A DNA stretch of 64,000 nucleotides from Methanomassiliicoccales archaeon. GTDB lineage: Archaea; Thermoplasmatota; Thermoplasmata; Methanomassiliicoccales; UBA472. The DNA lies in assembly GCA_028682895.1 (NCBI GenBank), contig JAJRAK010000025.1:1-64000 (forward strand). Direction: 5' to 3'. Below are positions 1 through 47,393 of this stretch, piece after piece. Under the pieces are notes generated by a model. It made no database searches. It saw only the letters and a list, made by a program, of their open reading frames with translations, and was not told where the DNA came from. Position numbers and translations under genes: made by a program. The stretch's first letter is position 1; each line of letters opens with the position of its first letter.

Positions 1-881
1 ACCAATATTGTGGCCATTGTTTTTTCGACCCAGTCCCTGTTCCAGATTTTTCGAGCAATAAAGAATCCAATTGTAATCCAGATAATGCTATACAATGGAA
101 TGAGAAAAATTGAATTTTCTATCTCGTCTAATGCTTTACCGAATGAAAAAGCCAGTAGGAAAAAAATAATGGAAGCTATTATGAACGCTATTACTATTTT
201 CGATAATCTCTTTAATTCATGCAATTTTCTAGCAATTTTAAATATATGATATTTTATATAATCAAACAAACGGTTTCCGATTGATGATTTCGAAGGATGC
301 AAAATACTATAATATTTCCTTAGTCCGGTAAATGTTAAGTAAAAATGATCATGTTTTTCACTCAATGGATTATATGAAAAAATTGTTCCAGTTTTATTTT
401 CATTGGAACCTTGTTTTTTTGTTCCGGGTAAAGTGATAAAATCGCATTCTTTTAATATTTTAAAACATTTTTCAATTTCCGAACACGATGTTTCCTTGAT
501 GATTCGTTTTACCTCAAATATTACATCAAATTCATTGATTGCATGTCTCATATCATTTTTAAAAATTTTTAATAATTGTAATTGTATCTTATCATCAATA
601 TCTAATTTTTTACGTATTTTTTTATTGCTATCAACCAATCCAAACCAAATTATTGATGAACTAGATATGAAGAATATTACTAACGCATAGAAATATTCGG
701 AATAAGATCCAGCAATATAATAGCTAAGTGCCATACAACTGAAAATATAAAAATTAAAAATGGCCTGATAAATTATTATCCATATTTTTGTATAGTCATG
801 TCTAGTTAGTTCTAGAACAGAAAGATTAAAAACGAAAACGGTGAGGATTAAACAAATCACTAAAGGGAAATTGTCAGACAA
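1..881 (-). CDS. Membrane protein of unknown function, 3' end cut by the window edge
   Basis: The frame is open from a TTG codon at 881 to base 1, giving 293 residues with no stop in the window. The TTG is the first possible start after an in-frame TAA. A GAGGT Shine-Dalgarno site lies at 890-894 and a TATATATATT box at 917-927, so the start is well placed. The N-terminal 75 residues hold about three hydrophobic segments. A charged soluble stretch follows, and two more hydrophobic helices lie near residues 230-285. Base composition is strongly AT-rich with A/T-ending codons, unlike the downstream chromosome, which fits acquired DNA. I do not recognise the family. Open frames on the opposite strand here are shadows. 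Confidence 0.7.
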   Translation of the reverse strand, partial: MSDNFPLVICLILTVFVFNLSVLELTRHDYTKIWIIIYQAIFNFYIFSCMALSYYIAGSYSEYFYALVIFFISSSSIIWFGLVDSNKKIRKKLDIDDKIQLQLLKIFKNDMRHAINEFDVIFEVKRIIKETSCSEIEKCFKILKECDFITLPGTKKQGSNENKTGTIFSYNPLSEKHDHFYLTFTGLRKYYSILHPSKSSIGNRLFDYIKYHIFKIARKLHELKRLSKIVIAFIIASIIFFLLAFSFGKALDEIENSIFLIPLYSIIWITIGFFIARKIWNRDWVEKTMATIL

Positions 882-916
882 TGATTTTTACCTCATTCGA
901 ATATAAATTATCAACC

Positions 917-927
917 TATATATATTA
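917..927 (-). promoter_or_regulatory. TATA-like box for the leftward membrane protein gene
   Basis: TATATATATT sits about 27 bases upstream of the expected transcription start near 895. That would place the GAGGT site at 890-894 right at the mRNA 5' end. Confidence 0.5.
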
Positions 928-995
928 TTTAATGACATTTTCACCAACCTCCCCTCCTTTTCGCTATATACACGTAGTCGGTAGCATCAACCCTA

Positions 996-1292
996 ATGGA
1001 ATGGTTGGGGAATGACATGGAATCAGACAAACTGGATAGGGGAAAGTTGGTTGATGAGTTCGTGAAGGAGATCATGGATCGAGAGGGCAACCGAGGGAAG
1101 CAATGCGTCGCTCTTGATCTCATGAGGAAGCACTTGATCGATCCTCCCGAAGGGATGATCATAAACGATGAGGAGTTCTCCTGGTTGATCGGTGTTCTCC
1201 GCCGCCGGTATGCTGACTTCATCATACCGGAGAAGTGCAAGATCTGCGTCAAGAGGGTGAAGGCAATGAGCAGCGTACTTTCGAGGACATAA
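996..1292 (+). CDS. Small hypothetical protein with C-terminal CxxC, paralogue of the next gene
   Basis: This 98-residue acidic protein is not a family I recognise. Its middle carries KQCVALDLM, which matches KKCVALRMI in the gene at 1402-1623. Both have a helical N-terminal arm and paired cysteines near the C-terminus (CKIC here). A TATA-like CTATATAC at 964-971 lies about 28 bases before the ATG at 996, which fits a leaderless transcript. An alternative ATG at 1017 would remove seven residues. The small size, unknown function and neighbouring AT-rich DNA fit the accessory element at the left of the window. Overlapping leftward frames of similar length have no comparable promoter or paralogy. 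Confidence 0.55.
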   Translation: MEWLGNDMESDKLDRGKLVDEFVKEIMDREGNRGKQCVALDLMRKHLIDPPEGMIINDEEFSWLIGVLRRRYADFIIPEKCKICVKRVKAMSSVLSRT

Positions 1293-1401
1293 GCGGGTCA
1301 AGCAACGTATCAACATGGTTTGCACCATCTAGCCAAGGTCATTTTTAATGACCCCCGGCTTTTATAATTTTATAGTGTTGAGTGGAACACAGCTCTTCAA
1401 A

Positions 1402-1623
1402 ATGGTGGAGAAAATGATGCAGGACATACGACTGGAAAAGGAACTGGAATCAGCCTACGACCAGATAGCCGACCGAGTGCCGATCAATAAGCGGAAGAAG
1501 TGCGTCGCCTTGCGGATGATTGCATACTACATCGATGCGATGAAGAAGGAGAATAATCACACTATCGCCATCGAGATGGGCGCGATTGAAAACGTGTGCG
1601 ATGACTGTGATGGATGCGATTAA
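1402..1623 (+). CDS. Small hypothetical protein, paralogue of the preceding gene
   Basis: A 73-residue protein with the NKRKKCVALRMI block shared with its neighbour and a Cys/Asp-rich tail (CDDCDGCD). The frame is open from an ATG at 1348, but a TATA box (TTTATAATTTTATAG, about 1361-1375) lies inside that extension and predicts transcription from near 1391. I therefore place the start at 1402; 1414 and 1417 are also possible. The C-terminal cysteines suggest a metal site, which is inference only. With 996-1292 it forms a tandem pair probably made by duplication. Function unknown. Confidence 0.5.
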   Translation: MVEKMMQDIRLEKELESAYDQIADRVPINKRKKCVALRMIAYYIDAMKKENNHTIAIEMGAIENVCDDCDGCD

Positions 1624-2156
1624 CGAATGATGACGCTGGGTGGAATGGTTTTCGTTAAGGTCATTTCGACAGGAAATTCATTCATACCCTTCCTTTGAAT
1701 AACGACTATCACCTTCTTTTTATTCGTCGTAGAAAATTCATCAGTAAAATGGGTTGTAAAATTACCATACTCTTTAGAGTTTTCAGATTCATCGTCAAAC
1801 AACACTTTGACTCTGAATTTCCATCTGCCTGTCAACTCTATAGAAATAATCGATGCCCCTTCGATGTCGTTCCCCTTACGAACGACCTTCTTGTCTAGAT
1901 GTATTGTATTTACCATAGGCGGTTTAAACCGAGATGCATAACCCATTGTTTTTGGGGTTTCCTGCACTTTTTCCATTTGTTGCGTCTTTTTCAATCGATG
2001 GATCTCACCACGTTGTTCAAAGATAATTATAATTTCAAATAAAGATATAAAAATCAATGTAGCGATTAAGATATTGTCTTGCCACCATTGAAATGCTACA
2101 GCTGCTACAAAAGATATAATAAACTCGATAAAATATCTACTAAGCGGTTGATCCAA
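1620..2156 (-). CDS. Membrane-anchored protein of unknown function
   Basis: 178 residues. Two hydrophobic helices lie near residues 8-25 and 28-46, followed by a short coiled-coil-like charged stretch and a soluble C-terminal domain rich in beta strands (residues 85-178). I do not recognise the domain. The start codon follows directly after the stop of the winged-helix gene at 2157-2441 on the same strand, so the two are almost certainly co-transcribed and probably functionally linked, for example as a regulator with its membrane partner. Codon use is AT-rich compared with the core chromosome. The 3' end overlaps the stop of the convergent small gene by four bases. Confidence 0.6.
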   Translation of the reverse strand: MDQPLSRYFIEFIISFVAAVAFQWWQDNILIATLIFISLFEIIIIFEQRGEIHRLKKTQQMEKVQETPKTMGYASRFKPPMVNTIHLDKKVVRKGNDIEGASIISIELTGRWKFRVKVLFDDESENSKEYGNFTTHFTDEFSTTNKKKVIVVIQRKGMNEFPVEMTLTKTIPPSVIIR

Positions 2157-2441
2157 TTAACCACCCATTATCTTCTCAATCTCAAGTAGCTTCTGGGCAA
2201 CCTCCTTCCCTCTGGAGGTCAATTTGTAAGTGATTCTGATTCGTGGATACTCATCGATATTGATGTCAACAAGACCTTCCGTTTCCATTCGTTCCATCAA
2301 TTTTTTTAGCCTGTCATAACTTGATATAACGACCTTCATATCCGTCGCGTAAGGCTCGTGGTTTTCCAGTAAAAAGAGTAAAACTGAAACTGCATTTAGC
2401 TCGTTCAGCGACTCCAGTTTCTCGAATTTTTGATTTTGCAT
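2157..2441 (-). CDS. Winged-helix DNA-binding protein
   Basis: 94 residues that read as a compact winged helix. Helices span residues 10-28 and 33-45, a recognition-helix segment is YDRLKKLMERMETEGLV, a basic wing is RIRITYKLTSRG, and a C-terminal helix could dimerise. This layout resembles small MarR/PadR-like archaeal regulators, but I cannot name a family. It is the first gene of a two-gene leftward operon with the membrane protein at 1620-2156. A TATA-like TTTTATTT on the minus strand near 2466-2474 and the dyad at 2450-2463 lie just upstream, so autoregulation is plausible. Confidence 0.65.
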   Translation of the reverse strand: MQNQKFEKLESLNELNAVSVLLFLLENHEPYATDMKVVISSYDRLKKLMERMETEGLVDINIDEYPRIRITYKLTSRGKEVAQKLLEIEKIMGG

Positions 2442-2449
2442 TACAAATC

Positions 2450-2463
2450 TAGATTCGAGTCTA
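2450..2463. promoter_or_regulatory. Dyad overlapping the transcription start of the winged-helix operon
   Basis: TAGATTCGAGTCTA is a palindrome with one mismatched pair of positions on each side of its centre. It sits 9 bases upstream of the ATG at 2441, where transcription should begin. It could be the operator of the encoded winged-helix protein. Confidence 0.35.
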
Positions 2464-2551
2464 CAAATAAAACGTCTACATTCTTGATTTTACATTAGAA
2501 ACCTTAAATACACCTAGTACCATTTGTGATTTCAAATATAGAAGGTGAAAC

Positions 2552-2716
2552 ATGCTTGAAAGACCAGTGGCTGTGAAGATCACCATCGGTGGCCGTATCG
2601 TTCTGACCAAGCCAGTCATCGACCGGCTTGATGCAGAGATCGGTGATAGCGTGATGATCTACGAGGAAGGTGGCAAGATCTGCATAGACAAGCTGCGCTC
2701 GCCTACGGAGGCATAA
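2552..2716 (+). CDS. AbrB/MazE-like swapped-hairpin DNA-binding protein
   Basis: 54 residues. KITIGGRIVLTKPVIDRLDA followed by GDSVMIYEEGGKICI has the strand, helix, GD turn and strand order of SpoVT/AbrB-type DNA-binding domains, which act as dimers and are common as antitoxins or in plasmids and viruses. A TATA-like TTAAATAC near 2507-2514 and GAAGGTGA at 2541-2548 support the ATG at 2552. It heads a run of three or four tightly packed rightward genes (2552-3275). No obvious toxin partner follows, so a role as transcriptional regulator of the element is as likely as an antitoxin role. Confidence 0.65.
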   Translation: MLERPVAVKITIGGRIVLTKPVIDRLDAEIGDSVMIYEEGGKICIDKLRSPTEA

Positions 2717-2799
2717 CCACGATCCAGGACGCCTCCCTCTCCGACCTTCAGGACGCTCTCCGGCGCTTCAAGGCATCGCTCAGCGACAACACAGCAACG

Positions 2800-2997
2800 A
2801 TGATCAGCGAGTTCGGCACCATCCGATACGCATTGGAACGCTCCGAGGGGCACCATCACGGACGCGCATGGAGCATTTTGGCCGAGCGCGACCTGATCAA
2901 TCGTGCCATCGGCGATATCGAGTCCGAGATCGAGGACCGCCAGCTTCGGACCGAACAGCAGCGCACAGCTGCGGAGATCCCCGAGATCGAGGCCTGA
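2800..2997 (+). CDS. Small hypothetical protein, 5' end uncertain
   Basis: 65 residues from the first ATG; hydrophilic and helical, ending in a Glu/Arg-rich segment. The reading frame stays open upstream to 2650 with similar codon use but has no ATG, GTG or TTG between 2650 and 2800. The ATG at 2800 lacks a ribosome binding site. A GGAGG at 2707-2711 lies right at the end of the AbrB-like gene, so either a non-standard start is used or the true N-terminus is at 2800. The stop is two bases before the ATG of the next gene, which implies one operon. Function unknown. Confidence 0.5.
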   Translation: MISEFGTIRYALERSEGHHHGRAWSILAERDLINRAIGDIESEIEDRQLRTEQQRTAAEIPEIEA

Positions 2998-2999
2998 TC

Positions 3000-3275
3000 A
3001 TGTCCGCAGCCGAGGCGATTGAGCTTGAGATCAACCGCCTGATTGACGAGGATGACTTCTACGCCCGCCTCGACGGCGAGGCCGAGGACATAGAGATGCG
3101 TCTTAAGGACGGCACGAAGAAGTCCTCCTTGGAGTGGGAGATCGAAGCCCTGATGGACGGCGTCGCCATGCTCAAGCCGAAGGAGAGGCCGAGGTTCCAG
3201 GCATACGTCGCCAGGAAGTACCCCAGGACCGCCAAGACGATGGGCTGGATGGCGGCCGCCAAGATCGAAGCGTGA
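3000..3275 (+). CDS. Small hypothetical helical protein
   Basis: 91 residues, mostly helical and acidic in the first 60 residues, then basic (KPKERPRFQAYVARKYP) near the C-terminus. The ATG at 3000 has GAGG at 2989-2992 at good spacing. A longer frame from 2868 is a shadow because its first 44 residues run out of phase across the preceding gene. It is the last gene of the rightward cluster that begins with the AbrB-like gene. The non-coding stretch 3276-3563 separates it from the integrase. No family recognised; likely an element-specific accessory gene. Confidence 0.6.
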   Translation: MSAAEAIELEINRLIDEDDFYARLDGEAEDIEMRLKDGTKKSSLEWEIEALMDGVAMLKPKERPRFQAYVARKYPRTAKTMGWMAAAKIEA

Positions 3276-3414
3276 GATCATGAATTCCTGTACCAGTCAG
3301 GCAGCGTACCCCGAAGCCCCCCGAGGGGACCGCCTGGCCCGTACCCGGCAGGATATCGTCCAGTCTTCCATCCCTCAAAACGCCTTACCTGCCGGACCAA
3401 ACCCTAACGATGCA

Positions 3415-3442
3415 CGGTTGTGCAGGAGCTCTAGCACAACCG
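3415..3442. repeat. 28-bp near-perfect palindrome upstream of the integrase
   Basis: Arms CGGTTGTGC (3415-3423) and GCACAACCG (3434-3442) are exact inverted copies flanking a central GAGCTC. Only two inner base pairs break full symmetry. It lies in the 288-base gene-free stretch 3276-3563. It could be an operator, recombination or replication site, or fold as a hairpin in RNA. Confidence 0.6.
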
Positions 3443-3456
3443 CTTTCACAATGACC

Positions 3457-3515
3457 GCCGCCCGGATGAATCCCCCACATCCTCCTTTAGTAGTCCAGTT
3501 TGCCAGCCGGGCGGC
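3457..3515. repeat. 9-bp perfect inverted repeat upstream of the integrase
   Basis: GCCGCCCGG at 3457-3465 and CCGGGCGGC at 3507-3515 are exact reverse complements separated by 41 bases, 49 bases before the integrase start. The rest of 3276-3563 shows no convincing gene. Confidence 0.5.
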
Positions 3516-3563
3516 CTCCCTATTACCCGCGAGGTGCGGCTGAAATGAACGGAGAGGCCCGGA

Positions 3564-4562
3564 ATGTACCAGCAGAAATACTACCAGAACGACCTGATAG
3601 AGAAGCATCTGGGCCTCATGCGGCGCCGCGGACGCCTCAAGGAAACCCAAGTGAAGGAGTACAGGCGGGAGCTGCGCACCATGCTCAAGGATCTCAGCGA
3701 CGCCGGTCTGCGATGCACCCCGAAGCTGATCGGGGAGAAGGAGATCGAGTGGCTGATCAACGAGCATTGGCAAGGGCTCTCCGTCAAGACGAAGCGCTGG
3801 AAGCTCACCGTGCTCAACGGATTCCTGAAAAGGCACAGGAACCCGGTGATCGCGGAAATGCAGCTAGGCTGGCCCCGGAGCGACCGGGTGAACGTGGAAT
3901 GGCTCACCCCGGAGGAGGCGGTGACGCTCATGGATGCCGCGGTGGGCGTGGAAAGAATCGTCGTCCACCTGGAGCTGCACCTGGGGCTGAGGCGATGCGA
4001 GGTGCAGCGCATGAAGCTCTCGGACATAGGCCAGGGCTGGTTCAGGGTGATGGGCAAAGGGAAAGGGGAGGGAAAGCCCCGCACCATCGCCTGGGCCCCG
4101 GAGACGTACGCGGAGCTGCCAGCCTGGCTGGAGGAAAGGGAAAGGATCATAGAGGACGCCCGGAAGAGGAGCGGGAAGGATCTCGCGGACCCGGAGTCCC
4201 TGGTGATATACTGGCACAGCGGAAGGCTGGCCGGGTACTCGGACAGCGGCCTGGATTTGGTGATGGAGCGCGCGGTGAACCGCTCCGGGATAGACAAGCC
4301 CGGGCTGCATCACCGCAACAGGCGGACGTGGGGACGCTGCACCATGGAGGCGGCCGGGAAGGACAATCAGAAGGCGCTGCTGATCGTGTCCGAAGCGTAC
4401 GGTCACGAGGATCTCAAGCAGACGCGGCAGTACCTAGGGCTGCCGATCGACGAGCTGCAAGAGGTGCAGGAGAAGCGCGCGGAGTACCTCGAACGGATTC
4501 GGGAGCGCATGAAGAAGGGGCTCCCGCCAGAGAAGAACTTCAGCATTCGAATCAGTCAGTAA
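3564..4562 (+). CDS. Tyrosine recombinase (integrase) of an integrated element
   Basis: 332 residues. The N-terminal half looks like a SAM-like core-binding domain and the C-terminal half like a tyrosine recombinase catalytic domain. Likely catalytic residues are the Arg in HLGLRRCEV (about residue 142), a Lys in the GKGKGEGK hairpin, HHRNRR (about residues 251-256), and His and Tyr in YGHEDLKQTRQYLGL. GGAGAGG precedes the ATG. The gene ends 50 bases from the 3' end of the tRNA-Met gene and points toward it, the usual arrangement for elements inserted at a tRNA 3' end. GC-rich coding compared with the AT-rich genes further left shows the element is mosaic. Confidence 0.85.
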   Translation: MYQQKYYQNDLIEKHLGLMRRRGRLKETQVKEYRRELRTMLKDLSDAGLRCTPKLIGEKEIEWLINEHWQGLSVKTKRWKLTVLNGFLKRHRNPVIAEMQLGWPRSDRVNVEWLTPEEAVTLMDAAVGVERIVVHLELHLGLRRCEVQRMKLSDIGQGWFRVMGKGKGEGKPRTIAWAPETYAELPAWLEERERIIEDARKRSGKDLADPESLVIYWHSGRLAGYSDSGLDLVMERAVNRSGIDKPGLHHRNRRTWGRCTMEAAGKDNQKALLIVSEAYGHEDLKQTRQYLGLPIDELQEVQEKRAEYLERIRERMKKGLPPEKNFSIRISQ

Positions 4563-4587
4563 ATGGACATTTCCAACCTGATTCGAA
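4546..4587. repeat. 10-bp inverted repeat spanning the integrase stop codon
   Basis: TTCGAATCAG (4546-4555) and CTGATTCGAA (4578-4587) are exact inverted copies around a 22-base loop, ending 25 bases from the tRNA-Met 3' end. It could be a terminator-like hairpin or an integrase arm site beside the attachment site. Confidence 0.5.
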
Positions 4588-4612
4588 ATCGCTGCTTAGC
4601 CAGATGAAGATG

Positions 4613-4686
4613 TGGGCCCGGTCGGATTTGAACCGACGACCAACCGGTTATGAGCCGGTCGCTCCACCGGACTAAGCTACGGACCC
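4613..4686 (-). tRNA. tRNA-Met (CAU anticodon)
   Basis: The minus strand folds as a cloverleaf. The acceptor is GGGTCCG with CGGGCCC (one G-T wobble), the anticodon stem ACCGG/CCGGT encloses CTCATAA with anticodon CAT, the T arm is GTCGG TTCAAAT CCGAC, and the discriminator is A. No CCA is encoded. CAT could be elongator Met, or an Ile2 tRNA after modification; sequence alone does not settle this. The 3' end faces the integrase, so it is the probable attachment site. Confidence 0.9.
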
Positions 4687-46181: not shown

Positions 46182-47393
46182 TCATCGTTTCCTGAACACC
46201 ACTATGCCGGCGACAGCTACTAGTCCGACCGCGCCGATCATCATGGCCAGACCGATGGGGCTGAACAGATCGGAGAGCTCATCCACTCCCTCTACGGTGA
46301 TGGCACCGACGGTGTCCGCCGGCAGATACACAAGCATCTGCTGGACCCCCTCGTCCTCCACTATGACGTAGCAGGCCTCGTCCGGCTGCCCATACATCAG
46401 TTCCAATGCATCATCGGCCTCTGAGATCTCGGTGCCGTCGATGCAGACCCGAAGCCTGTCCTGGGTCATGTCCATGGTACCTGAGTCGGTGTTGATCAGC
46501 AGCAGGCAGCCCTGTTGGTTCTGGCCGCCGATGCTCATCTGCAGCTTGTTCTGCGTCACCTGCTGGACCTGCACCTGCAGTTCGTTCCGGTAGCACATGA
46601 CATCATAGACGCTCTCTTCATCGTCGGCCATCACGGTGACCTCAGCTCCCACGGAACCGTTCTGCACCGCATACATCAACGCCGTCTCCAGCCATTGGTG
46701 GCGATGAGCCGTCTGGGGCAGGAAGCGCACCATCAGGTCCTCGGTCACGGTGCATTCGATGACGGTACCGTTCTCCGTGACCATGAACGGGTCCTCCGAA
46801 GCGATCATACCGGTGACATTGCCGTCAGAGATGACCAACTGGTACGTCATATCGCAGGATTCGTTCAATACCTTCTGCTCAGTCACGACTATGTCCCCGG
46901 CCAGGACGATGGTGACGTTAGTGCTGTCGTTCACGAACAGATGGTACATACCGGTCGGATTATCATGGACCATGACCACGGTATCGCCATCGACGATCTT
47001 GGCCACGGAGCCAGTGGTCCTGACGCTTTCAGGAACGAACCCGTCCACGGTTATGTTCGAAATGAGCACCTTCTCGCCGTAAGAGGTGTTCAGGCCGTAA
47101 TCGGTGATGATGCCCGTATCCTCGTCCAGGTCGTAGAACACGAACCCTCCTTGCCCATGTCCGTAACTGTAGCCCATCTTACCTAAGAGTGAGTTGCCCG
47201 AGGCCTTCTGATAGGTCTCAGCGTTCACACCGTTACCGGAATCGGAGCTCTGTTCTCCGCTACCCTCCGATCCGTTCCCGTTGCCGTTCCCTGCGCCATT
47301 GCCATCTGCCAGCACTGGGGAGGCTACCATGGCCAAGGCCGAGAGCAGGAGCATCCCGCCTAGGATCAGACCGAAGATCTTACTCGTTCTCAT
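46182..47393 (-). CDS. Secreted, membrane-anchored surface protein
   Basis: 403 residues. A signal peptide (SALAMVASPVLADG, cleavage near residue 29) precedes a Gly/Asn/Ser-rich linker. A large mostly beta ectodomain follows, with many N-glycosylation sequons such as NDST, NVTI and NESC. One C-terminal hydrophobic helix ends with a basic tail (VVFRKR), a typical archaeal cell-surface anchor. Function unknown; it could be an S-layer-associated or binding protein. Upstream lies an array of GTTCG/CGAAC boxes at 47451-47510, so it is probably tightly regulated. Confidence 0.8.
   Translation of the reverse strand: MRTSKIFGLILGGMLLLSALAMVASPVLADGNGAGNGNGNGSEGSGEQSSDSGNGVNAETYQKASGNSLLGKMGYSYGHGQGGFVFYDLDEDTGIITDYGLNTSYGEKVLISNITVDGFVPESVRTTGSVAKIVDGDTVVMVHDNPTGMYHLFVNDSTNVTIVLAGDIVVTEQKVLNESCDMTYQLVISDGNVTGMIASEDPFMVTENGTVIECTVTEDLMVRFLPQTAHRHQWLETALMYAVQNGSVGAEVTVMADDEESVYDVMCYRNELQVQVQQVTQNKLQMSIGGQNQQGCLLLINTDSGTMDMTQDRLRVCIDGTEISEADDALELMYGQPDEACYVIVEDEGVQQMLVYLPADTVGAITVEGVDELSDLFSPIGLAMMIGAVGLVAVAGIVVFRKR

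Follow-up and report, generated by a model that had tools for sequence, protein, structure and literature searches.

The first 4.6 kb of the window very probably form the right part of a Methanomassiliicoccales mobile element at tRNA-Met, in which an intact Xer-like recombinase joined a circular attP to the tRNA 3′ end and whose far end lies on a second contig, C54. Elements integrated at tRNA genes are of an ordinary kind; the new part is an order-wide att signature of inverted arms, whose function we infer from sequence. Direct evidence comes from two att copies that lie in the order and orientation to be expected, integrase-free sites in relatives, and an integrase that is intact and keeps its conserved catalytic residues.

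The two ends of the element

The window is the whole 64,000-nucleotide stretch analysed here, bases 1-64000 of contig C46. Its source genome, labelled G000, has an assembly of 1.66 Mb in 63 contigs at 91% completeness and is one of the 61 genomes of the order in our survey set. Window position 1 coincides with the beginning of contig C46, so an assembly break truncates the element; no other contig overlaps the first 200 nt of C46.

Features of the right part of the element and its tRNA-Met target (window positions)
Feature	Position	Strand	Basis or remark
Right part of integrated element, cut on the left by the start of the contig before the element end is reached	1..4612		ends at attR; far end on C54
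AT-rich gene for a membrane protein, incomplete at the contig start, 293 aa visible	3..881	-	ORF list, composition
Small ORF, 98 aa, no family	996..1292	+	family searches
Small protein, 91 aa, Cys-rich C-terminus (CDDCDGCD)	1348..1623	+	homologue beside winged helix in UBA6 element
178-aa protein, N-terminal membrane helices	1620..2156	-	helices read from sequence
Winged-helix protein, 94 aa	2157..2441	-	HxlR/HTH_45 below Pfam cut-off; phrog_12817 3e-5
AbrB/MazE-like DNA-binding protein, 54 aa	2552..2716	+	TIGR01439 E 2e-4, 20.9 bits, below 28.3 cut-off
Small ORF, 91 aa, in GC-rich block	3000..3275	+	ORF list
Tyrosine recombinase (integrase)	3564..4562	+	PF00589; catalytic R143/R144, K165, H250, R253, H281, Y290 invariant in family
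Right arm TTAGCCAGA (TCTGGCTAA in tRNA sense)	4596..4604	+	inverted copy at C54:45786-45794
tRNA-Met (CAT), target gene	4612..4686	-	3′ end faces integrase
attR core, 16 nt in common with attL	4613..4628		sequence comparison with C54:45754-45769

An earlier note on this DNA had read a tyrosine recombinase pointing at the nearby tRNA-Met 3′ end, and the product does match PF00589 above the cut-off (E 4e-9). The gene is unsplit and encodes an intact protein of 332 aa, with its stop 49 nt from the tRNA-Met 3′ end. The note's broader reading, an integrated element at this tRNA, gains support from a second att copy and from integrase-free sites in congeners.

The same note had seen no copy of the tRNA 3′ sequence in positions 1-3500 and had placed the other attachment site left of the window, and both statements hold. 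The window contains no second tRNA 3′ copy, since the best other match scores 24 vs 120, at the random level of about 22-27 obtained from shuffles of the 18 kb C54 locus L018. A whole-genome search with the tRNA-Met 3′ region returned, besides ordinary tRNAs, a C54 match that extends past the tRNA end, which answers the question of where the other element end is located. The 16-nt core TGGGCCCGGTCGGATT at attR is present in the same orientation at C54:45754-45769, and C54 itself has the orientation expected of the far end. This is the single clear repeat of the core found in G000, and it is short, with only 16 nt at attL. No tRNA gene is called at the C54 attL site; the target tRNA-Met is intact, and its displaced 3′ fragment is present at the far end. 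Furthermore, CTTAGCCAGATG sits 6-7 nt past the core at both C46 and C54, and this 12-mer has three copies in the genome, the third lying in the trailer of a tRNA-Ala(CGC) on contig C10.

The sequenced element ends comprise 2.4 kb on C54 and 4.6 kb on C46, in contigs that are not joined in the assembly. Right of attL, the last 2.4 kb of C54 has a GC content of 0.59-0.66 and carries small genes, while on the C46 side GC climbs from 0.28 (1-1000) to 0.63 (3501-4500). We infer that the C54 tail and the C46 head are parts of one element. GT-rich low-complexity stretches were also seen in ORF translations of the tail near the far end (C54 ~46270-46700).

The integrase family and inverted CTGGCT motifs

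The integrase is a two-domain, Xer-like protein from an order-wide family that abuts tRNA-Met, Ile, Val, Trp, Ala, Gln, and Pro genes. Family matches occur in 38 of the 61 genomes (G000 included), and named relatives come almost entirely from Methanomassiliicoccales and other Thermoplasmata. The catalytic residues listed in the table, R143 and R144 both among them, are invariant in 15 aligned members, with an HxxR signature (H250-xx-R253). The predicted structure (mean pLDDT 82, pTM 0.61) consists of a four-helix N-terminal domain from residue 2 and a catalytic domain, with no further arm-binding domain. The nearest solved sequences are those of the integron integrase IntI4 (2a3v), XerA (5hxy), and an archaeal XerC-like protein (4a8e). 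XerA also led the fold search, with low TM-scores (<=0.44 by query length) and an rmsd near 11, which are probably due to a different placement of the two domains.

We compared 22 distinct junctions, each with a family integrase adjoining the 3′ end of a tRNA gene (Met, Ile, Val, Trp, Ala, Gln, Pro, and one Ser from a distant member) with 53 distinct other trailers. The motif CTGGC[TC] lies within 30 nt of the tRNA at 15 of the 22 junctions vs 2 of the 53 other trailers, with a Fisher p of 8e-9 that is indicative and overstates independence because the junctions are related to each other. Its offset past the tRNA 3′ end is mostly 8-9 nt across seven tRNA types, and the exact motif is missing from 7 of the 22 junctions. 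The scarcity of CTGGC[TC] in other trailers rules out a general tRNA feature. One of the two motif-bearing other trailers belongs to the tRNA-Ala on C10, and genes of this type are targeted elsewhere. This gene (C10:1586-1665, L020) has a low covariance score of 30.8 bits and an insertion, with CATCTGGCTAAG in its trailer and no integrase match there; it is a possible relic of an element.

At the far end of the G000 element, TCTGGCTAA on the inner side of attL is an exact 9-nt inverted copy of the right arm. Nine further elements were taken for a far-end scan, of which G014 (no called tRNA) was dropped. In five of the eight scanned, a core copy scored above shuffled sequence (34-42 vs at most 26); far copies were not found in three (G025 Ile, G046 Pro, and G024 Ile). 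All five far ends carry CTGGC[ACT] 7-20 nt inside the far core and inverted with respect to the trailer motif, seen as CTGGC[TC] by script in three and as CTGGCA by eye in the printed sequence of two, which brings the elements with an inverted far-end CTGGC to six when the C46/C54 element is counted. The presence of the motif at both ends in inverted orientation implies an attP made up of an arm, a tRNA-derived core, and an inverted arm. A CTGGCT that follows the 3′ end of a tRNA gene by 8-9 nt and has an inverted counterpart at the other element end provides a short signature for finding element ends across an archaeal order.

In the mechanism we propose, the integrase would recombine the circular attP with the tRNA-Met 3′ end (T-arm to position 73), a copy carried by the element would make the 3′ end of the tRNA gene complete again, and the 16-nt tRNA fragment displaced by the insertion would mark the far end on C54. 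The inverted arms around the core would make attP different from attB, and they would serve as recognition sites for the integrase or for an accessory protein such as the winged helix.

The motif could instead be an operator for an element regulator, or a promoter or terminator part of the integrase or tRNA gene, rather than a recombination arm. AbrB-like and winged-helix regulators beside the integrase, together with a predicted integrase without a lambda-type arm-binding domain, give this explanation some weight, but we consider it unlikely given that the motif occurs at both element ends, inverted and within ~20 nt of the core, in six elements, that it mostly keeps its offset from the tRNA end over seven tRNA types, and that it is absent at tRNA-Met sites without an integrase.

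Recombination arms would set these elements somewhat apart from known systems. Archaeal tyrosine integrases are described as targeting tRNA 3′ ends through short att sites, tandem integration included, in the accessible part of a review of archaeal recombinases (PMC8371274); arm sites are discussed there for lambda, and no archaeal att arm pair is described in that part. A literature search over partly available texts, in which subscription journals were thinly covered, likewise returned no paired-arm att site from archaea. Should the arms be integrase sites, they would have no archaeal parallel in the accessible text of that review (PMC8371274). Like the classical (type II, non-suicidal) archaeal integrases as described there, the C46 integrase gene stays intact after integration, the tRNA 3′ end is the target, the tRNA is restored, and att sites are direct repeats, with tandem insertions known; unlike them, the C46 element combines a short 16-nt core with inverted CTGGCT arms outside it. 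The pNOB8-type signature R...YxxR...Y given in the same portion of the review (PMC8371274) differs from the HxxR of the 15 aligned members. SSV-type suicidal integrases differ as well, with att inside the gene and KxxR, whereas the C46 core lies outside an HxxR-encoding gene. By its description in the accessible text (PMC8371274), the SNJ2 family of a haloarchaeal pleolipovirus is similar in being classical and in using, at the 3′ end of a tRNA gene, an att of only 13-14 nt; it is restricted to Halobacteria, and helper proteins can raise its activity. XerA and integron integrases share the two-domain architecture and are nearest among solved sequences and structures, but the C46 integrase belongs to tRNA-adjacent elements and is not a dif-site resolvase. 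The arrangement resembles a lambda-type attP in that element-borne motifs flank a short target-shared core and are absent from the target site. Unlike the heterobivalent lambda integrase, the predicted C46 integrase has no separate N-terminal arm-binding domain, and the arms are close to the core; lambda-type arm binding by the integrase N-domain was dropped on the basis of this model.

We tentatively suggest that Methanomassiliicoccales elements may use one order-wide module, comprising a two-domain Xer-like integrase, an attP of AGCCAG-arm, tRNA T-arm-acceptor core, and CTGGCT-arm, and a winged helix that sets direction, with the arms constant and the core switching among tRNA genes. If true, archaea would have an att system that bears arms although its integrase has no arm-binding domain of the lambda type, and constant arms with a switching core would offer a simple route for tRNA target switching.

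The tRNA-Met site in congeners

Relatives with an integrase-free tRNA-Met site, for which the earlier note had proposed to look, are G002 and G009, where the search found neither an integrase match nor the motif in the trailer. In both, genes for PaaI, flavodoxin, and AMP ligase (names assigned by reading the sequences) begin 0.6-1.1 kb downstream of tRNA-Met, and their G000 homologues lie on C54, with identities of 77% and 68% for flavodoxin, 74% and 79% for the ligase, and 39-40% for PaaI. Because this gene set stands beside tRNA-Met in G002 and G009 and on C54 in G000, C54 and C46 flank the insertion. Older insertions keep the old site from being reconstructed base-exactly, with ~10.5 kb of other genes between PaaI and attL in G000.

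Within this stretch, C54:40695-40961 (L018:10696-10962) holds an integrase C-terminal remnant (60%) and after it a decayed att-like sequence (L018:10925-10962) whose score of 36, with the next best there at 34 on the other strand, is weak alone. The two together are probably what is left of an earlier element at tRNA-Met. Between the decayed att and attL, C54:41095-44801 holds two genes labelled surface-protein-like from their sequences, with similar C-termini, which are perhaps cargo of an older insertion. In other congeners, tRNA-Met of G006 adjoins an integrase C-terminal remnant and the motif, and in G005 two remnants of att lie on the far side, where flavodoxin is. These integrase and att remnants in series indicate that tRNA-Met is probably a hotspot of the genus with serial insertions, so that a methanogen genus now provides an example of such a site. 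Under the proposed mechanism, CTTAGCCAGATG outside attL would be an arm left from an earlier element that serial insertion at the one hotspot has moved outward. Two further congener contigs, L071 (G003:C1) and L072 (G008:C2), start <=8 nt from the tRNA-Met 3′ end, as if assemblies broke at a site that only some cells of the population have occupied. Elsewhere in the order, the sequence outside the far att of an 11.9 kb element at tRNA-Ala in G058 (L186/L187) repeats the near att trailer, which suggests a tandem insertion.

Serial insertion also raises the prospect of two elements or remnants, in which the C54 repeat would be the far boundary of an earlier insertion at tRNA-Met and the far end of the newer C46 element would be missing from the assembly. 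We regard this as rather improbable. The C54 remnant with its decayed att, the arm outside attL, the 91% completeness, and the unclosed gap between C54 and C46 would all accommodate it, but the inner inverted arm on C54 matches the right arm on C46 at all 9 nt, both contigs break inside the element, and the genome holds a single clear core repeat. We therefore retain one element spanning C54 and C46.

Genes in the right part of the element

The AbrB-like gene, small ORFs, winged-helix/membrane pair, and AT-rich membrane gene that the earlier note had listed were all located left of the integrase. The TIGR01439 match of the AbrB-like gene and the HxlR/HTH_45 matches of the winged helix fell below the cut-offs. 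The 293-aa gene is found in G000 and in none of the 60 relatives, and the winged helix is patchy (28/61 genomes; among congeners only G005 besides G000); conserved synteny of 1-3500 in integrase-free relatives, which the note had named as evidence against an element, was not seen. Composition and patchy distribution make its remark that the element is a mosaic plausible. The winged helix recurs near family integrases: among the matches listed outside G000, 13 of 49 have an integrase match no more than 5 kb away, a raw count with no null. From this context, it is a candidate regulator or directionality factor. In the UBA6 element, homologues of the 91-aa Cys-rich gene and of the winged helix sit next to each other, and three other loci (L106, L108, and L118/L124) carry AbrB-like homologues near integrases. 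Variable regions adjoining tRNA genes are common, but that the genes in 1-3500 are ordinary chromosome with only a stray integrase by the tRNA is very hard to credit alongside the att repeats, the integrase-free sites, a 293-aa gene in no relative, and the recurrence of AbrB-like and winged-helix genes beside family integrases.

Methanomassiliicoccales proviruses with pleolipovirus VP4-like fusogens are mentioned in the accessible part of one report (PMC10919331). Family searches of the 10 end genes of the G000 element, whose middle lies outside the assembly, recognised no VP4-like spike gene and no other viral hallmark. Viral contigs contained no relatives of the 293-aa protein or of a small C54-tail protein, and integrase relatives at one locus, which ends at a contig end. 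When used as a probe for the element middle, a large protein of the G043 element matched 10 of the 61 genomes, G000 not among them. That element, ~13.7 kb and complete, lies at tRNA-Val (L110, G043:C19), and no viral hallmark was recognised in it beyond weak matches. It encodes a 427-aa protein without a family match, which we take to be a P-loop ATPase, two large secreted/membrane proteins (one with a weak glycine-zipper match), a winged helix, and a small Cys-rich protein, and it is possibly a virus.
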